IMG/VR virus record: IMGVR_UViG_3300025120_011425
Coordinates: 1 to 21,431 of that record
Reading direction: 5' to 3' (one strand)
Length of the DNA: 21,431 nucleotides
Source of the DNA: a virus
Every line of letters begins with the position of its first letter. Position 1 is the first letter of the stretch. Below, piece after piece: positions 1,648 through 21,431 of this stretch. Below the pieces are notes generated by a model. The model was given only the letters and a program-made list of their open reading frames with translations, was not told the origin of the DNA and did not search any database. The position numbers and the translations under genes were made by a program.

Positions 1648-2865
1648 ATGCTTATCGAAGACATTCTTAATGAGTTTAAGAGAACACATTTAGAACACAT
1701 AGAAGACATAGTGCTTACCCAAGGCTATAATGGTGGCAAGGCAGTGATAGATTATTATAAAGGTTTGCTTGTTACCCTACAAGGAACCACTGTTAATCCT
1801 GTACAGGTTAGTGTCAAATGGGACGGTGCTCCTGCTGTAGTGTGTGGAATAAATCCAGACAACGGTAAATTTTTTGTTGGGACCAAATCGGTTTTTGCAC
1901 AAAGTCCTAAAATAAATTATACCAAAAATGATATCGCTCGTAATCACGGTACAGATGATCTTGGACAAAAACTTTTAAAGTGTTTGGTTCATCTTAAAAA
2001 AATTAATATTCAAGGAGTTGTACAAGGTGACTTATTGTTTACTGAAGATGATTTAAGTAGAAAACCAATTGGTGGTAAGCAACATATAACTTTTACTCCT
2101 AACACAATAACTTATGCAGTACAAGAAGGTACAGATATTGCAAAACAAGTTGAAGCGGCCAAAGTCGGTATAATATTTCATACAACATATACAGGCGACA
2201 GTCTAGGAGACATGAATGCATCAGCAGGAGTTGATGTACAAAGTTTTACAAAATCACCTAACGTGTTTTTTGATAACGCAACGTACAAGGATGTTTCAGG
2301 CAGTGCAAAATTTACTAAAGATGAAACTGCATTGTTTATGCAACAGGTAGATAACTTAGAAAAACTTTTGCAATCGGTTCCAAGAAATTTAAGTGACATG
2401 TTTAAAGGCAATCAAGACTTTGTTCCATACTTTCAAATGTTTATTAATGATCAAGTAAGGCAAGGTAAACTTCCAACCAATGCAAATTTATTTGTAAACG
2501 ATTTTAAAAAGTTTTACACAAATAGAATGCAACAACAAATTGCAGGACTTAAAGCACAAAAGGCTCTAGCACTTAGACAAGAAAAAATGAAACAGATGCC
2601 TGTGTTTTTAAACAGACTGAAAAGACCATTACAGGCCATGCTTAACTTTTACAAGCAGACACAATCAATGAAAACATTAATTTTAAAAAAAATGAATCAA
2701 GCAATGCAGATTGGATCATTTAGTCAAACTGAAAATGGATTGGAAGTTACAGAACCTGAAGGATTTGTTGCAGTTGATAAACAAGGTGGTGCTGTAAAAT
2801 TAGTAGATAGATTAGGATTCAGTAGAAGAAATTTGACTGTTATCAACAAATTCAAACCATCTTAA
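1648..2865 (+). CDS. DNA/RNA ligase-type nucleotidyltransferase-like protein
   Basis: A 405-residue protein with the ordered motifs of the covalent nucleotidyltransferase superfamily (ATP-dependent DNA ligases, RNA ligases, capping enzymes). Motif I is VKWDGAP (56-62), in which Lys57 would carry the AMP or GMP. There is a following strand FFVGTKSVF (75-83) and a motif III-like GVVQGDLLF (123-131). Near the C-terminus are EGFVAVD (371-377, motif IV-like) and VKLVDR (383-388, motif V-like). Between them lies a long helical insertion (about 225-350) that normal ligases lack, which sets motifs IV and V unusually far from motif I. It could seal or cap a nucleic acid, or be a non-catalytic virion relative; large phage proteins of unknown function with KxDG exist. 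The Shine-Dalgarno GAGGA precedes the ATG. The last 54 bases overlap the convergent glycosyltransferase gene. Confidence 0.6.
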   Translation: MLIEDILNEFKRTHLEHIEDIVLTQGYNGGKAVIDYYKGLLVTLQGTTVNPVQVSVKWDGAPAVVCGINPDNGKFFVGTKSVFAQSPKINYTKNDIARNHGTDDLGQKLLKCLVHLKKINIQGVVQGDLLFTEDDLSRKPIGGKQHITFTPNTITYAVQEGTDIAKQVEAAKVGIIFHTTYTGDSLGDMNASAGVDVQSFTKSPNVFFDNATYKDVSGSAKFTKDETALFMQQVDNLEKLLQSVPRNLSDMFKGNQDFVPYFQMFINDQVRQGKLPTNANLFVNDFKKFYTNRMQQQIAGLKAQKALALRQEKMKQMPVFLNRLKRPLQAMLNFYKQTQSMKTLILKKMNQAMQIGSFSQTENGLEVTEPEGFVAVDKQGGAVKLVDRLGFSRRNLTVINKFKPS

Positions 2866-3882
2866 TAATTCATTATTGATTGAAGGAATTAAATTTAGTT
2901 TATTATAAAAAGTTTTTTTATTATGTTCTCTTATTTCTGTTGTTTGTTCATATAATTTGTGCCAATTGCTAGACTTTAAATTTGTAATTAATTTAACAAT
3001 CTTATCGATCCTTTTATCGCAATCATGTGTTTCATCGTAAGATTCGTCAAATACTGTTTCAAAAGTTTTAAATCCAAGTTTTTTTAATTTTTTAAGATAT
3101 GCAAAATTGCCATGCACAATAAAAATGTGTCCAGCAATTATTGGTTTCCATATCTTCTCTGTCATAAAAACATCGTTACAGTTGTCGTTTGTTTCTGACA
3201 CTATACTTAAACCTGTTTCGTTGTAGGGTTTTTCATATATTTCTTGATCACAATCATACATTGGATAGGTTTGTGTATTATCCAACCAAGGCAATTCATA
3301 GGCAGGGTTCAGTTTTACCGGATGATCTCTATGATGAGTAAAACTATATAAACTTTTTTCTAACAGATTAACATCTAATAGTTTTTCATAAAGTTTTGCT
3401 CTATGTTTTCTAGGTTGCTTATTAAGATATAAAAAATCATATTTTTTAACTGAATGGTCAAACTGTAACTGAGGTTTAGTATATTTTTTGCTCATTAGAT
3501 ACCAAAACCAACTGTGTTGACCATGCCATAGAAATCTATTTTTGAATCCTGTTGGAAAATACTTAGAGTTTTCAAAATTTTCTTTTGATTCCCATGAACA
3601 TGAAACGATTATTTTAAAGCCTAGTGTTTCAAGTTTAACGATTCTATTTTTTAATTCAATATCAAAATCTTTATTTCCTTGTAATCTTTGATTACGATGT
3701 TTTACATCTAGCAGTGCAATTTTTCTGTCATAATCAGAAAGATTAAATTGATGAAGGGTATAATATTCTCCGGTCATTTCAAATTTTTGATTAGGTAAGT
3801 TGTTTAGTTTTATAAATCCTTCAGTGGCCAGGTGATCTCCAGTTTTCATTATGTCAGTTAGAATAAAATTGGTCTGGGCCAT
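2812..3882 (-). CDS. GT10-like glycosyltransferase
   Basis: A 356-residue protein whose C-terminal third resembles the donor-binding half of GT10 fucosyltransferases: an SETND segment (229-233) followed by VFMTEKIWKPIIAGHIFIVHG (238-258), where GT10 enzymes have the conserved TEKxxxxxxxGxVPVxxG signature. An earlier strand, DFLYLNKQPRKHR (149-161), fits the start of the nucleotide-sugar domain. The likely role is transfer of a sugar from a GDP-sugar to phage or host surface glycan; donor and acceptor are unknown. It is on the minus strand between plus-strand genes. Its 3' end overlaps the ligase-like gene by 54 bases, and its start is only 15 bases from the divergent gene at 3898. ATG at 3882 is chosen; an internal ATG at 3849 is possible. 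Confidence 0.65.
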   Translation of the reverse strand: MAQTNFILTDIMKTGDHLATEGFIKLNNLPNQKFEMTGEYYTLHQFNLSDYDRKIALLDVKHRNQRLQGNKDFDIELKNRIVKLETLGFKIIVSCSWESKENFENSKYFPTGFKNRFLWHGQHSWFWYLMSKKYTKPQLQFDHSVKKYDFLYLNKQPRKHRAKLYEKLLDVNLLEKSLYSFTHHRDHPVKLNPAYELPWLDNTQTYPMYDCDQEIYEKPYNETGLSIVSETNDNCNDVFMTEKIWKPIIAGHIFIVHGNFAYLKKLKKLGFKTFETVFDESYDETHDCDKRIDKIVKLITNLKSSNWHKLYEQTTEIREHNKKTFYNKLNLIPSINNELLRWFEFVDNSQISSTES

Positions 3883-6065: not shown

Positions 6066-6467
6066 ATGGCAACGGAAAACAACACGACATTCGTGGCAGG
6101 AACACAATCTTTTCTAGGAAAAGAACTTGAGTTCATCACGATTGATGCAGGTGAGGAGTTAGCGAATCACTTGTTAAAAAACGAAACAGCAAACGCTATC
6201 GAAAACACAGTTAGAGTATACGGTAACATCGTAGGTTCTGGCCCATTATTCGATACGAATGCTTCAAGAACATACATCGTAGAAGGTACAGACATGTTCG
6301 TTGGTGCACCAGCAGGTGCAGGCGGCACTTTTACTTTCACTGAATCAGGTGCAGACGGTTCGTCAGTAGGAACACTACTTGCGGCACTTAAAGCATTAGG
6401 TACAGTCGATGGTATTGACTTAAACGACTCTGGCACTACTGCCAAAATCGAAAACTTAGAAATATAA
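6066..6467 (+). CDS. Small abundant virion-type protein, paralogue 1
   Basis: A 133-residue protein, glycine-, alanine- and threonine-rich and predicted mostly beta, without membrane segments. It is the first of three tandem genes of nearly equal length (133, 134, 131 residues) that share a pattern: an N-terminal GKELEFITIDAG-like strand, a central strand after a GP or glycine turn, and a C-terminal NDSGTTAKIENLEI-like strand. The strong Shine-Dalgarno AAGGAGG eight bases before the ATG, the late-type promoter and a dedicated terminator at the cluster end suggest very high late expression, as for capsid decoration, tail-tube-like or other major virion proteins. I do not recognise a named family. 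Base composition is somewhat less AT-rich than the flanking genes, consistent with high expression. Confidence 0.75.
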   Translation: MATENNTTFVAGTQSFLGKELEFITIDAGEELANHLLKNETANAIENTVRVYGNIVGSGPLFDTNASRTYIVEGTDMFVGAPAGAGGTFTFTESGADGSSVGTLLAALKALGTVDGIDLNDSGTTAKIENLEI

Positions 6468-6486
6468 TAGGAAAGGGAAATAAATT

Positions 6487-6891
6487 ATGCCAATATCAAG
6501 AAATAACTTTACAGCTCTACCTGTTGCGGCAGAGTTAGAAGGTGTAGATGTATCTTACTTCACAGTAGATTTCATCAACGCAATGAACGCAGAAGTTGGG
6601 GATCCACAAGCGGGTTCACAAGTTGCTGGATTAGCACTAGTAGAAGCGGCTATCATGAACCAAGGAATCAACATCTTGGCTCAAGGTCCGTTAGGAAACT
6701 CAAACACAGAATGTACTTACATGGTAAGAACTGACAGTTTGGATGTTGCTAACCACATAACTGCAAACGGTCTAAGAGATGCAATCAGAGCGGTTGACAC
6801 AGCAGGAAGAGCGGCAAGTGCCACTCCAAGAAACACTGCTAACATATCATCTGCGACAGTAACGGCTAAAACGTTAACAATCGCTGTTTAA
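6487..6891 (+). CDS. Small abundant virion-type protein, paralogue 2
   Basis: A 134-residue protein and second member of the tandem trio. Its N-terminal LEGVDVSYFTVDF (residues 18-30), central QGPLGNSNTECTYMVRTD and C-terminal ISSATVTAKTLTIAV line up with the same elements of its neighbours, most clearly with paralogue 3, whose tail reads LSSATVVAATAASF. It is separated from the first gene by 19 bases containing a purine-rich ribosome binding site (AGGAAAGGGA). There is no catalytic motif and no signal peptide. The even spacing and absence of promoters inside the cluster imply one late transcript. It is probably an abundant virion component; whether the three form a hetero-oligomer or serve different sites in the particle is not visible from the sequence. 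Confidence 0.75.
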   Translation: MPISRNNFTALPVAAELEGVDVSYFTVDFINAMNAEVGDPQAGSQVAGLALVEAAIMNQGINILAQGPLGNSNTECTYMVRTDSLDVANHITANGLRDAIRAVDTAGRAASATPRNTANISSATVTAKTLTIAV

Positions 6892-6911
6892 TAACATAGG
6901 AGGAATAGACA

Positions 6912-7307
6912 ATGACAACTAAAGTAAATCCTACTAAAGCAAACACAACTGATCACCTTTCAGGTAAGACGATCACGGCTGTGACTGTAGACTTTGCAGT
7001 TAACGGTACGAACTTCGCTTCTACTGAAATGGGACCATTGGGTGCGGTGCAAACAGCAATAGCGACAATGACGCAAGAAGCAACACCAATCATCATTACT
7101 AAATTAAGAAGTGATGGTTCGAATGACGGTCAAGTATTTGACATGGTATTCGAAGGTGAGTTCGGAACTGACACGTACGATGGTTCTAACTCTGAGGCTT
7201 TCGCGGCATACCTACAAACTGTAGTAAGACTGTTAACATCAGTTGGTGCAGGACCAGTGAACTTATCAAGTGCAACTGTTGTAGCGGCTACGGCGGCATC
7301 ATTCTAA
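6912..7307 (+). CDS. Small abundant virion-type protein, paralogue 3
   Basis: A 131-residue protein and third of the tandem paralogues. It has the N-terminal LSGKTITAVTVDFAVNG strand (residues 17-33), a central IIITKLRSDGSNDGQVF region, and the C-terminal LSSATVVAATAASF, which aligns with the tail of paralogue 2. A strong Shine-Dalgarno, AGGAGGA (6898-6904), lies seven bases before the ATG. A clear rho-independent terminator starts 31 bases after the stop, closing the late operon. The alanine- and threonine-rich composition, lack of charge clusters and strong expression signals fit a self-assembling virion protein. Function beyond that is inference. Confidence 0.75.
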   Translation: MTTKVNPTKANTTDHLSGKTITAVTVDFAVNGTNFASTEMGPLGAVQTAIATMTQEATPIIITKLRSDGSNDGQVFDMVFEGEFGTDTYDGSNSEAFAAYLQTVVRLLTSVGAGPVNLSSATVVAATAASF

Positions 7308-10475: not shown

Positions 10476-10832
10476 ATGCGTTTTCAAGAGTTTCGATCTA
10501 CAAACAAAGAATTAGAATCAGCATTGGTTAATACACTGACAAATATGCGAGGTGATGCAAATGATGATGATCAAACAGCACAGATAAGTTTTGATGCTCT
10601 TGACCAAATAATGAAGAACACTGGTTATCCAACATTTAATTACGACCTATTTAAATCAATCTATGACAACGGCGACATACTTAAAAATGTTGTTGACGAT
10701 TTTGATCAAGAAAAAATTGTTCTCAAAACAGAAAAGCAGGCTGAAAAAGATCCCTCAATGGATTTTGACGATCAAGGTTCTACTGACAAGGTTAAACAGA
10801 TGGCTAAGTCAGCGATGAACAGACGAAAATAA
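10476..10832 (+). CDS. Small acidic protein of unknown function
   Basis: A 118-residue protein, not recognised, with a strongly acidic middle (GDANDDDQTAQISFDALDQI, DNGDILKNVVDDFDQEK) and a basic C-terminal end (KMAKSAMNRRK-type: KQMAKSAMNRRK). The Asp-rich stretches could bind metal, but no EF-hand pattern is evident. The start lies 4 bases after the stop of the preceding acidic-tailed protein, so the two share a transcript and may interact. After its stop there are 17 bases to the GPx gene with no terminator, so read-through into the accessory region is likely. Confidence 0.65.
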   Translation: MRFQEFRSTNKELESALVNTLTNMRGDANDDDQTAQISFDALDQIMKNTGYPTFNYDLFKSIYDNGDILKNVVDDFDQEKIVLKTEKQAEKDPSMDFDDQGSTDKVKQMAKSAMNRRK

Positions 10833-10849
10833 TACGCATAATTACATAC

Positions 10850-11269
10850 ATGACAGATAAATTACTCCAAATGGATTTGGAATCCTTGAAGTTAGGATTA
10901 CTGTCCTCAAATAAATTTTGGAATAAAAAACTAATTATTTTTAACACCGCAAGTTTATGTGGTTTTACAAAACAATTAGCAGACTTTCAAAAAATTTTTA
11001 TTGCTGGACTTGCAGTGCCAATAGCAATACCTACTAACGATTTTGGTAAACAAGAACCTGGTGACGATTACGAAATTTTACAATTTGCAAAAAAAACATA
11101 CGGAGTTACTTTTCCTATTTGCAAAAAAACAGATATTAATCATAAATTTTTTAAAACTTTTGGACAACCCGATTGGAACTTTAACAAGTACCTTTTTACA
11201 GTAGATCATAATTTTGTACAAAAATTCAGTTCGGCTAAAAGTCCTCATGAGGTGGTTGCATATGTCTAA
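10850..11269 (+). CDS. Glutathione peroxidase family protein
   Basis: A 139-residue thioredoxin-fold peroxidase. NTASLCGFT (32-40) holds the peroxidatic Cys37. TNDFGKQEPG (62-71) holds Gln68, YGVTFPICKK (84-93) contains Cys91, and WNFNKYLF (109-116) supplies Trp109 and Asn110, completing the Cys-Gln-Trp-Asn tetrad of the family. It would reduce hydrogen or lipid peroxides using thioredoxin or glutathione. Cys91 may serve as a resolving Cys, although its position (within the FPI-x-K-x-D stretch) is not the usual one. It is shorter than the usual ~160 residues, mainly at the N-terminus. The gene overlaps the start of the radical SAM gene by 8 bases (ATGTCTAA), so expression is coupled, which could link oxygen-sensitive radical chemistry to peroxide removal. 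Confidence 0.85.
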   Translation: MTDKLLQMDLESLKLGLLSSNKFWNKKLIIFNTASLCGFTKQLADFQKIFIAGLAVPIAIPTNDFGKQEPGDDYEILQFAKKTYGVTFPICKKTDINHKFFKTFGQPDWNFNKYLFTVDHNFVQKFSSAKSPHEVVAYV

Positions 11270-12539
11270 TACTTTTTGCAATTTTCCATGGAAACAAATT
11301 TATGTAGCAACTTCTGGGCATCAAAGACTTTGTTGTCAAAATATTGAAAACATTGAAAAAGCAGATGGCTACAAGCAATACAATATGCTTCATGATGAAA
11401 TTACAGATTGTTGGAATAGTGAATACATGAAAAAAATGCGGCTGGCAATGATCAAAGGAGAAAAAGTTGCAACATGCTCAAAATGTTATACACAAGAACA
11501 GGAAGGATATAACTCCTTAAGAAATACAGCAGGAAAAGATTATTTTATTAAAAATACAAATTTAGACGGTAGTCTAAATTATCTACCAACTGATTTAGAA
11601 TTACATTTTGGTAACTTGTGCAACTTATCTTGTAAGATGTGTAGTCAACAGTTTTCTCATACTATAGGAAAAGAATTATTAAAGATGGGAGATGCTGATC
11701 CAGAATTTTTAACGTGGGTCAAAAAAGAAAGTGGGGTAGTAAACAACTGGACAGGTCAATTAGATGTAGTCTACGACTGGTTCAAAAATGAAAAAATTAA
11801 AAACAGTATTTTTGCTTTTGTTAGTGAACATGTTGAAGAACTTAATATTATAGGAGGTGAGCCAACGGTGATTAAAGAATTTTTTGAACTGTTAGAATTC
11901 TGTCACAAAGCGGGTACGCTACAAAATAAGTCGATAATGATTCACAGTAATATGACAAATATAAATCCAAAACTAACAGACTGGTTGGGTAGTATGAAAC
12001 GATGGTCAGTTGCGGCAAGTATAGATGGTATTGATGAAAGAAATAGATATATTAGATATCCGTCAAACTGGAGAAGTATTTTAAAAAATTTAGATTTTTA
12101 TAAAAACATTACCAATAAATTTACAAACGGATACGTAAGTTTTGGTCCTGCCATACAACTTTTAAATGTTGATCATATTGTTGACTTATTTGAATTTTTT
12201 CAAAGTCAAACAGTAACACAATTTGGTAATTTCTTTTCACATGTAAAACACCCAATAATATGTGATTATGATATCTTGCCTACTGATTATAAACAAAAAG
12301 TTGCTGACCATTTAACAAAAAATTTACATAAAATTAGAATTAAAAATTTTAAACATGAGATAGAAACACACGTTAACGGACTGCAAAGAGAATTATATAG
12401 TGAGGAACAAAAATTGAATTATCAAAAAATGTTTATAAGGTATAACGATTCACAAGATAGATTTAGAAATAATACAATGACATGGAGAAAATTACTGCCC
12501 GATCTCGAAAAATCTTTGCTTAACTTAGGCCACAAGTAA
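11262..12539 (+). CDS. Radical SAM protein with N-terminal SPASM/twitch-like cysteines
   Basis: A 425-residue protein. The radical SAM core holds CNLSCKMC (about 125-132, CX3CX2C, binding the 4Fe-4S cluster that splits SAM) and IIGGEPTV (about 200, the GGE motif). Before the core lies a Cys-rich N-terminal part: CNFPW near residue 5, LCCQN around 26-30, and ATCSKCY around 67-73 after a WNSEYMKKMRLAM helix. This resembles a SPASM/twitch auxiliary-cluster domain moved to the N-terminus. Such enzymes modify peptides, proteins or sugars, but no precursor peptide is seen nearby. I chose ATG 11262, with GAGGTGG (11250-11256) as ribosome binding site, and not TTG 11214, which lies within the GPx gene. 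The 3' end overlaps the convergent radical SAM gene by 20 bases. Confidence 0.85.
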   Translation: MSNTFCNFPWKQIYVATSGHQRLCCQNIENIEKADGYKQYNMLHDEITDCWNSEYMKKMRLAMIKGEKVATCSKCYTQEQEGYNSLRNTAGKDYFIKNTNLDGSLNYLPTDLELHFGNLCNLSCKMCSQQFSHTIGKELLKMGDADPEFLTWVKKESGVVNNWTGQLDVVYDWFKNEKIKNSIFAFVSEHVEELNIIGGEPTVIKEFFELLEFCHKAGTLQNKSIMIHSNMTNINPKLTDWLGSMKRWSVAASIDGIDERNRYIRYPSNWRSILKNLDFYKNITNKFTNGYVSFGPAIQLLNVDHIVDLFEFFQSQTVTQFGNFFSHVKHPIICDYDILPTDYKQKVADHLTKNLHKIRIKNFKHEIETHVNGLQRELYSEEQKLNYQKMFIRYNDSQDRFRNNTMTWRKLLPDLEKSLLNLGHK

Positions 12540-13533
12540 AGTAACAAGTTTGAAGTCTATACGATCCTTTTTCACCTTTGATACCTGTTTCAAGTGCATT
12601 AAAAAACTCTCCATGGAGAATCTCTTCTAATGATGAATGATTAAGATTTACTTTCTTATAATTACTGATAATATTTTTTGATTCATGTTGACTTAAATCA
12701 CCAAGCCAACAACAAGGCGAAACATCACCATTGGCGGCAATATAAATCTCATAATTTTTATTTGCATGATCACAAGATTTACAAATTATATTTTTACTAT
12801 TTAAAGATTCAACTTTAATAGGCATTCTATCGCTGTTTCCACCGGTGCCCACTTTTTGAGGCTCTAAACTAGATGACTTTTCTAAATAGTAATCATCAAC
12901 TGGTAATTTGTCAAATTTTCTCCAATTTCCCAAATGATCAAAGTCTGACCATCTAGCAGATTGCTGTATATCAAATTTTCTAAAACCTAATTTAATTGCT
13001 AATTTTTTACAAGAGTCAATTTGTGATTCGTTGTGTTTAAAAACAAGCATCTGCCAAGAAGCATCTCCTCCGGCCTGAATAAAAGATTTAATATTATCCA
13101 TAAGTTTTTGCCATTTTACATTCCTACGATAAAGGTGATTGGTATTCTCTAGTCCGTCGATAGCAAAAACAACAGAAACATTTAGTTTTGCCAAACCAAC
13201 CCAAAATTCTTTATTTCTAGCACCACCGTTAGTATGTAATTCTAGTTTACAATTTTTATTGGTGCTCCTTAACCAAGTGTAAATGTCAAGACATTGTGGA
13301 TTCATTGAGGCATCTCCTAGATTGCCACAGGAAGAAAAATGTTTTAATTGAGAAATTATTTTTGTTCCTATTTTATCCTTAAGAAAATTTAGTGTGGTAT
13401 GAGTATTATTAACTTTACCTTTGTTTAGTACTCCATCAATAAAATATCTTGCACACATAGGACAGGCCGCATTACAAAAGTTTGTAAGTTCAGCGTTTAT
13501 TTTATTAATATTATCAGTTGTTATATAAGGCAT
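12520..13533 (-). CDS. Radical SAM/SPASM-like protein
   Basis: A 337-residue protein. The cluster motif CNAACPMC (about 20-27) lies in a CX3CX2C pattern, followed by CGNLGDASMNP (about 69-79), where the usual GGEP loop is replaced by a GNxGDxxxNP form, as in some radical SAM families. The C-terminal part holds further Cys: CKSCDH, VSPCCWLGD and LQTCYFTCG, fitting a SPASM-like auxiliary Fe-S cluster domain. It is on the minus strand and convergent with the other radical SAM gene, overlapping it by 20 bases, and starts 19 bases from the divergent exonuclease gene. The arrangement suggests that the two enzymes were acquired or kept as a unit. Substrates are unknown. A weak TATAAGTA on the minus strand (13550-13543) might be its promoter. 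Confidence 0.85.
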   Translation of the reverse strand: MPYITTDNINKINAELTNFCNAACPMCARYFIDGVLNKGKVNNTHTTLNFLKDKIGTKIISQLKHFSSCGNLGDASMNPQCLDIYTWLRSTNKNCKLELHTNGGARNKEFWVGLAKLNVSVVFAIDGLENTNHLYRRNVKWQKLMDNIKSFIQAGGDASWQMLVFKHNESQIDSCKKLAIKLGFRKFDIQQSARWSDFDHLGNWRKFDKLPVDDYYLEKSSSLEPQKVGTGGNSDRMPIKVESLNSKNIICKSCDHANKNYEIYIAANGDVSPCCWLGDLSQHESKNIISNYKKVNLNHSSLEEILHGEFFNALETGIKGEKGSYRLQTCYFTCGLS

Positions 13534-13552
13534 GTGAATATATACTTATATT

Positions 13553-14257
13553 GTGAAAATTACTAAAGACATCCTTGAAGACAAAGGCATAGCATATATT
13601 ACAAAGTATCCTTACACAGATTTATCTAAAACAGCCAAAAATGGCAAGCGACATTATCAAACACCAGACGGAAGATCTGTGCCTAGTGTGACTACAGTGC
13701 TTTCAGCCACTAAAGACATGACACATCTAAACGCATGGAAGAAAAGAGTAGGCGAACAAAAGGCACAACAGATTGCTACTGAGTCTGCAAATATTGGTAC
13801 TGTTATGCATAGGAGTTTAGAAAAACATGTCAAAGGGCAAGACAGGAAACCCGGTTCTAATTTGATACAACAAAAAGCACATGCAATGGCCAATGTGATT
13901 ATTGACAACGGGCTAAAAGATGTATCAGAAGTATGGGGATCAGAGGTATCACTTTATTATCCTGAGTTGTATGCCGGTACCACTGACTTAGTTGGCGTTT
14001 ACAAAGGACATCCTTTCATAGGGGATTTCAAACAAGCAAGGCGGTTAAAGAAAAAAGAATGGGTAGAAGATTATTACTTGCAGTTGACAGCATATGCAGA
14101 AGCACACAACAAACAGTACGGCACACAGATAAAGAGTGGTCGTATGTTTATATGCACACAAAAGAACGAATTTCAAACATTTGAAATAGAAAACTACGAC
14201 TATTGGGTGGACCAATGGTTTCGTAAATTAGAACAATATTACAAGTCTGTCCTTTAA
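13553..14257 (+). CDS. PD-(D/E)XK exonuclease
   Basis: A 234-residue nuclease of the RecB/MGME1-like PD-(D/E)XK class. GTVMHRSLE (82-90) with a conserved His, EVSLYYPELYAGTTD (131-145) with Asp145, IGDFKQARR (156-164) carrying the D-x-K pair Asp158 and Lys160, and QLTAYA (177-182) with Gln177 and Tyr181 form the expected ordered set. Metal-dependent digestion of single- or double-stranded DNA ends is expected, in phage replication, recombination or host-DNA recycling. It starts with GTG at 13553, because no ATG occurs upstream in frame and the divergent radical SAM gene begins 19 bases away. SVTTVL (45-50), in a PSVTTVLSATKD segment, is typical of the family N-terminus. It is followed by a late-type promoter for the tailspike. 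Confidence 0.85.
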   Translation: MKITKDILEDKGIAYITKYPYTDLSKTAKNGKRHYQTPDGRSVPSVTTVLSATKDMTHLNAWKKRVGEQKAQQIATESANIGTVMHRSLEKHVKGQDRKPGSNLIQQKAHAMANVIIDNGLKDVSEVWGSEVSLYYPELYAGTTDLVGVYKGHPFIGDFKQARRLKKKEWVEDYYLQLTAYAEAHNKQYGTQIKSGRMFICTQKNEFQTFEIENYDYWVDQWFRKLEQYYKSVL

Positions 14258-21125: not shown

Positions 21126-21431
21126 TTACTTTAATGCAACCGTAGCACCTTGTTCTTCTAGTGCTTTTTTCATTTCTTCTGCTTCTGATTTATCAATATC
21201 TTCTTTGACTGCTTTAGGTAATCCTTCAACAAAGTTTTTTGCTTCTAACAGGCCTAGGCCAAGTATTTCTTTAACTTTTTTAAGTACGCCTATTTTTTTA
21301 CCGTCAGCAAAGCCTGTTATCATAACTGTGGCTGTGGTTTTTGCTTCTACTGGTGCTTCTACTGGTGCCGCAACCATGCCTGCTGTTGCTGTTACACCCC
21401 ACTCTATTTCCAGTTTGTTGGCTAAATCAGC
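21126..21431 (-). CDS. rplL: Viral ribosomal protein bL12 (5' end cut by window)
   Basis: The visible 101 residues show the end of the N-terminal dimer domain and hinge ([13 protein letters not shown]), a linker rich in Ala/Pro/Val/Glu, and the full C-terminal domain with [21 protein letters not shown], which in cellular bL12 binds translation factors EF-G and EF-Tu. The frame stays open to the window edge, so the gene begins beyond 21431; the ATG at 21377 is internal. bL12 forms the ribosomal stalk, and a phage copy could replace host bL12 and bias translation to phage mRNA. Phage-encoded bL12 is known from Pelagibacter phages and other viruses. Compared with E. coli, the helix-face Lys of GLGLKEAK is Leu here. 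It is on the minus strand, and its stop abuts the convergent gene's stop. Confidence 0.9.

Follow-up and report, generated by a model that had tools for sequence, protein, structure and literature searches.

The window considered here comprises all 21,431 nucleotides of IMG/VR record IMGVR_UViG_3300025120_011425, a 21.4 kb sequence of an uncultured marine T4-like phage whose nrdB is about 65 % identical to those of pelagimyophages (Mosig/HTVC008M) and cyanophages. Within it, a gene for a glutathione peroxidase (GPx)-like protein is followed directly by rSAM1, encoding a radical S-adenosylmethionine (SAM) protein with an N-terminal twitch, and a second radical SAM gene, rSAM2, converges on rSAM1 from the opposite strand (Table 1). 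The three genes lie in a slot between h10476 and the exonuclease gene exo, which has a fibre gene as a neighbour. The coordinates of the open reading frames and the Pfam and NCBIfam matches bear out the original prediction of three genes with overlaps of 8 and 20 nt. Its statement that the module lacks a precursor gene of the RiPP (ribosomally synthesized and post-translationally modified peptide) type also holds, since the successive gaps of 17, -8, -20 and 19 nt leave no space for a precursor peptide gene next to a maturase; the relatives are equally tight, a result that concerns the locus only and leaves a precursor elsewhere in the genome possible. Both radical SAM proteins retain an intact CxxxCxxC and the Cys motifs for auxiliary clusters.

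Relatives were gathered with rSAM1, GPx and rSAM2 as queries and with h10476 as a neutral anchor, the anchor scan taking in the best 80 of 121 loci. All of them share one locus, in which a variable slot separates h10476 from exo, save for radical SAM clusters of other phages that are only distantly related. Of the 57 distinct slots selected by the anchor, 24 carry rSAM1 and 33 lack it; a GPx-family gene occurs in 14 of the former and in none of the latter (Fisher p = 2.5e-7), and two profile scans made with GPx only returned 35 different contigs, all with the gene in the h10476-exo slot. Wherever these contigs continue (34 of 34), rSAM1 is directly downstream of the GPx-family gene or fused to it; chance adjacency is ruled out by the slot statistics and the GPx-only scans. 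The overlap of the two genes is above chance, because a stop/start overlap of 8, 4 or 1 nt recurs in nearly all unfused pairs. The proteins have also diverged together: distances for GPx and rSAM1 correlate with r = 0.89, as against 0.28 for GPx with h10476 and 0.26 for GPx with exo. The corresponding values are 0.74 for nine pairs in which GPx keeps its peroxidatic Cys (0.01 and 0.01 with the flanking genes) and 0.90 for 14 pairs in which it does not (0.65 and 0.32). Finally, three contigs (L038, L043 and L048) encode a Cys-less GPx-like protein, or pseudo-GPx, that a short linker joins in frame to rSAM1; these proteins of 552 aa are 86-87 % identical and form one clade inside the Cys-less group. 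A sequencing frameshift behind the fusions is ruled out, the in-frame linker being common to three separate contigs. The GPx-family gene is thus obligately linked to rSAM1 and the pair is inherited together, and the coupling of GPx to the first radical SAM gene, as originally predicted, is supported.

The GPx-like protein of the window exceeds the Pfam GSHPx (PF00255) cut-off of 27 bits, matches the cellular GPx profile with an hhalign probability of 99.9 %, and contains the SxCG and WNF motifs. It lacks the full Cys/Gln/Trp/Asn catalytic tetrad, having Asp64 at the Gln position, and the loop before its WNF motif is shortened; it also falls far below the equivalog cut-offs for BtuE and Gpx7 (NF007900, 73.6 of 270 bits; TIGR02540, 58.6 of 207.3 bits). 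An alignment of 28 family members comprises 12 Cys-bearing and 16 Cys-less proteins. All 12 of the former retain three tetrad residues, Cys, Trp and Asn, but have Asp, Asn, Glu or Met in place of the Gln, which is present in the cellular GPx compared. The other 16 have lost the peroxidatic Cys, the Gln and the Trp altogether, and they form one clade in both the GPx tree and the rSAM1 tree.

These pseudo-GPx genes are under purifying selection and are not decaying (dN/dS, the ratio of nonsynonymous to synonymous substitution, is 0.07-0.13 for unsaturated pairs close enough to measure). That they are true GPx homologues follows from hhalign probabilities, 99.8 % to the Cys-bearing phage proteins and 95.4 % to cellular GPx, together with an AlphaFold model (pLDDT 92.6, pTM 0.88; the underlying alignment took in Cys-type rows) whose top match is GPX4, with a Z score of 16.1 over 123 residues. 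Phage-specific residues, among them L10, G16, D72, H98, P107 and F116, are common to the two clades. When unfused Cys-less proteins were scanned against Pfam, two had no match and one had a GSHPx match under the threshold, so that none reached the cut-off and routine annotation is likely to be blind to the GPx link. When distant twitch proteins are used to root the rSAM1 tree, the pairs with a Cys-bearing GPx form a basal grade, and the Cys-less group and a GPx-free group (with rSAM2 or nothing upstream) are sisters inside one derived clade (support 83/99). This order, and the presence of the Cys in cellular GPx, indicate that the Cys was lost rather than gained.

The third gene is a separate matter. 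A three-gene module, as originally predicted, is ruled out by the anchor survey: rSAM2 is found without rSAM1 in 14 of the 57 slots and with a GPx-family gene in one, and is an independent passenger of the slot, the exact arrangement of GPx and rSAM1 facing rSAM2 being confined to the window and L013 (where the convergent overlap is 11 nt). The prediction had named regular separation of the three genes, or decay of a radical SAM gene, as what would speak against it; both are seen for the triple, L125 having a decayed rSAM1 remnant with its middle deleted, whereas the GPx-rSAM1 pair stands. Eleven of the slots are empty, with 17-57 bp from h10476 to exo. Cargo without rSAM1 consists of rSAM2 alone (6 slots), rSAM-C, which is another radical SAM family, alone (5), rSAM-C with rSAM2 (4) and rSAM-C/D with rSAM2 (4), and cargo with it of rSAM1 alone (4), rSAM2 with rSAM1 (6), GPx with rSAM1 (4), pseudo-GPx with rSAM1 (7) and the fused form (1); larger combinations (2) and other cargo (3) make up the rest. 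A tree of the proteins encoded on either side of the slot (66 tips, seven states; many branches weakly supported) requires at least 32 switches of slot state, and the cassettes are therefore exchanged.

We note that two slots (L092:6387-7487 and L093:6357-7478) are filled by a DegP-like trypsin/PDZ protease and not by radical SAM genes. Further cargo stands beside radical SAM genes at L027:11271-12086(-), L142:7390-8076(+) and L009:8978-9970(+); by eye two of these look SGNH-hydrolase-like, and one resembles the window gene at 2812-3882 (-). The latter is a putative glycosyltransferase-like gene that has a 54-nt convergent overlap with a DUF6267 gene (2812-2865), an arrangement also seen in relatives; other phage contigs (L057-L085, e.g. 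L064, L073 and L084) carry tandem arrays of twitch-type radical SAM genes with relatives of it interspersed. An Fe-S carrier (ATC) gene is not a steady companion, being found in one of 12 phage records (G001), most of which are fragments. Cultured phages gave no orthologue of either radical SAM gene or of the pair; what they contain are distant radical SAM proteins and GPx of the cellular type. A cellular origin of the pair was rejected, as a close rSAM1 orthologue was found in just one of the 385 genomes of the class sampled. The contig concerned, from a Pelagibacter metagenome-assembled genome (L164, CAJQJC010000067.1), has h10476, pseudo-GPx and rSAM1 in the same phage synteny and is likely to be phage sequence in a Pelagibacter bin, either a possible hint at the host or a binning error.

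rSAM1 scores above the 170-bit cut-off of NCBIfam NF033640 (N_Twi_rSAM) over residues 2-417 and is a member of that family; in Pfam it has a Radical_SAM match and an N-terminal SPASM-type match (residues 6-76). Its twitch Cys pattern and CxxxCxxC core are intact in 41 of 41 rSAM1 proteins, unchanged whether the GPx partner keeps or loses its Cys. Both rSAM1 and rSAM2 are below every equivalog cut-off for named peptide maturases (SkfB, PapB, mycofactocin maturase, ScmF and others), and rSAM2 belongs to no NCBIfam equivalog. Prokaryotic viperin (pVip) membership was not found (34.1 of 180 bits), and membership in a defence system was rejected, PADLOC giving just a viperin-like match of 40 bits to the radical SAM core only. 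By solved fold and by sequence, the rSAM1 core comes closest to the peptide maturases SuiB, SkfB and anSME, which speaks mildly for a protein or peptide as substrate. The twitch of rSAM1, unlike theirs, is N-terminal. The neighbourhood in the window, with methyltransferase-like genes, a fibre gene with a pectate-lyase domain and, by eye, glycosyltransferase- and sulfotransferase-like genes, leaves a glycan substrate open.

Directly before exo most slots, empty or loaded, among them L091, L112 and L022, have a sigma-70-type site (TTGACA-17-TATAAT, or with 1-3 mismatches), and in plus-strand cassettes the 3' end of rSAM1 overlaps the -35 box of this exo promoter. With few exceptions no sigma-70-type site was found ahead of the plus-strand cassettes, which usually start 14-24 nt after h10476, and a match to a virion structural family is seen for the gene that precedes h10476. 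Because no promoter can be recognised for the cassette itself, transcription probably reaches it from the structural-type genes upstream, so that it would be expressed late. Elsewhere in the window, a gene for a ribosomal protein L7/L12 C-terminal domain (21126-21377, -; Pfam 85 bits) has a frame open to the contig end, and L12 has been reported from pelagimyophages (PMC7029224). Small genes of about 132 aa follow one another at 6066-7307 (starting at 6066, 6487 and 6912), and their number varies among relatives (L002, L004, L007 and L013).

Table 1. Positions of the genes and sequence features of the slot in the window
Feature	Position	Strand	Remarks
h10476	10476..10832	+	Phage-specific protein, 118 aa; left border of variable slot; about 63-88 % identical in relatives, always left of slot
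GPx-like gene	10850..11269	+	139 aa; Pfam GSHPx 63.1 bits
Cys37	10958..10960	+	Peroxidatic Cys position of GPx, from alignments; gone in pseudo-GPx clade
Asp64	11039..11041	+	Replaces catalytic Gln of tetrad, from alignment
Trp109-Asn110	11174..11179	+	GPx tetrad; kept in window; Trp gone in pseudo-GPx clade
Stop/start overlap, GPx-like gene and rSAM1	11262..11269	+	8 nt, ATGTCTAA; rSAM1 ATG at 11262
rSAM1	11262..12539	+	N-terminal-twitch radical SAM protein, 425 aa; NF033640 288.7 bits
rSAM1 N-terminal twitch motif	11277..11486	+	CX12GX4CC...CX2C (Cys6, 24, 25, 72, 75); invariant in alignment
rSAM1 radical SAM motif	11619..11642	+	CxxxCxxC (CNLSCKMC), from alignment
Convergent overlap, rSAM1 and rSAM2	12520..12539	.	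20 nt
rSAM2	12520..13533	-	Radical SAM/SPASM-like, 337 aa; Pfam Radical_SAM and SPASM matches; separate slot passenger
rSAM2 auxiliary-cluster Cys region	12532..12783	-	C-terminal, from alignment; Pfam SPASM 31.8 bits
rSAM2 radical SAM motif	13453..13476	-	CNAACPMC, from alignment
Weak sigma-70-type site before exo	13518..13546	+	TTGTTA-17-TATACT, at place of relatives' TTGACA-17-TATAAT
exo	13553..14257	+	Cas4-like PD-(D/E)XK exonuclease; right slot border; phrog_298 E 3.9e-51; 73-83 % identical in relatives

Several explanations for the pairing can be weighed against these results. The original prediction saw in GPx an antioxidant guard, which removes peroxide and so shields an oxygen-sensitive Fe-S enzyme. 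Fe-S enzymes are indeed oxygen-sensitive, and the window protein is a clear GPx homologue that keeps Cys37, Trp109 and Asn110; however, the Gln is missing even from the Cys-bearing members, the clade without Cys, Gln and Trp retains the protein and even fuses it, and slots rich in other radical SAM genes do without GPx, no GPx-family gene having been found in phage records with up to nine such genes. With the peroxidase residues dismantled in part of the family, peroxide protection is unlikely to be what holds the pair together, and we give this explanation little credence. It is quite unlikely, too, that in the Cys-bearing phages Cys37 shuttles disulfide or sulfenate for rSAM1 or the substrate of rSAM1, a role later dropped in the Cys-less clade. 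The invariance of Cys37 throughout the Cys grade, the retained Trp and Asn, and a resolving-type Cys that remains in L002 and L004 would fit such a role, but the window protein has no resolving Cys at the usual position, the entire motif is dispensable in the derived lineage, and the rSAM1 motifs do not change along with it.

The GPx-like protein could instead be the substrate, modified by rSAM1 as a precursor is by its maturase, with the fused forms modifying themselves. An upstream, translation-coupled position and fusions are also known for RiPP-type precursors, the closest solved folds of rSAM1 are maturases, and the slot has no space for another small gene. Against this, the conserved residues are scattered across the fold and do not mark out a tail or core peptide, conservation between the clades does not extend to the residues surrounding Cys37, and rSAM1 persists without the GPx-like protein, so that we consider this unlikely. 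Passive linkage, in which the GPx gene hitch-hikes with its end coupled to the start of rSAM1, would account for the nearly universal overlap among unfused pairs, yet it is very improbable given the strong purifying selection on pseudo-GPx, the in-frame fusions with a linker, and the rSAM1 genes without GPx found directly behind h10476.

Obligate linkage, co-divergence, retention without catalytic residues and fusion together suggest that the GPx-like protein is probably a dedicated, largely non-peroxidase partner subunit of the N-twitch enzyme rSAM1. Some results weigh against this. rSAM1 occurs with all motifs intact and without any GPx-family protein in 10 of the 24 anchor slots that carry it, and the partner is thus dispensable for at least part of the rSAM1 family. 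The window protein, with Cys37, Trp109 and Asn110 kept, might have thiol activity. In a model of the fusion made with rSAM1 rows the GPx domain is poorly predicted (only three fused sequences cover it) and a mixed alignment misplaced GPx rows, so that an interface cannot be read, and the late timing is deduced from promoter absence and neighbourhood only.

On this view, an ancestral Cys-bearing peroxidase-like protein would have been recruited next to rSAM1 as its partner subunit, translational coupling would make both proteins together, and the fusions suggest that they probably form a 1:1 complex. Selection would then keep the scaffold of the partner and not its peroxide chemistry, one lineage losing Cys, Gln and Trp and another the whole GPx gene. 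As an accessory cassette of two genes, GPx and rSAM1 occupy an exchangeable slot bordered by a structural-type gene on one side and by the sigma-70-type exo promoter on the other. The partner may position or recognise a substrate, or stabilise rSAM1, and the complex may modify a polymer, a protein or another, while virions are being assembled, which would endow the phage with a swappable trait such as receptor or defence escape.

Radical SAM cassettes are carried by the host-recognition clusters of pelagimyophages (PMC7029224), and a T4-like environmental genome has 12 radical SAM genes (PMC5332604); these marine T4-like phages resemble the present group in having exchangeable radical SAM genes near tail-fibre genes and a Cas4-like nuclease, and the Fe-S carrier gene recurs in the relative G001, although the consulted parts of the two accounts mention no GPx partner, fusion or h10476-exo slot. 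Ciliates are known to have GPx paralogues devoid of the tetrad residues (PMC7409322), but no partner enzyme is described for them, whereas the phage gene is tied, and partly fused, to rSAM1. Full-text searches of open-licence literature found no published account of a phage GPx-radical SAM pairing, which appears, within that literature, to be undescribed, as had been predicted.

More tentatively, the peroxidase fold may have become a radical SAM partner module, a counterpart of the RiPP-recognition element, passing from a Cys-bearing protein through a dead adaptor to a fused domain that recruits substrate for an N-twitch enzyme whose targets are polymers of the virion or the host surface. Marine phages commonly encode N-twitch radical SAM proteins; the NF033640 model name gives no function, and in the literature searched we found neither a function nor a partner or GPx-like fusion described. 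A co-inherited and sometimes fused partner offers a concrete handle on the complex, its structure and its substrate. If this reading is true, these phages would provide a natural series from enzyme-like protein to dead scaffold to fused domain, tied to one partner enzyme.

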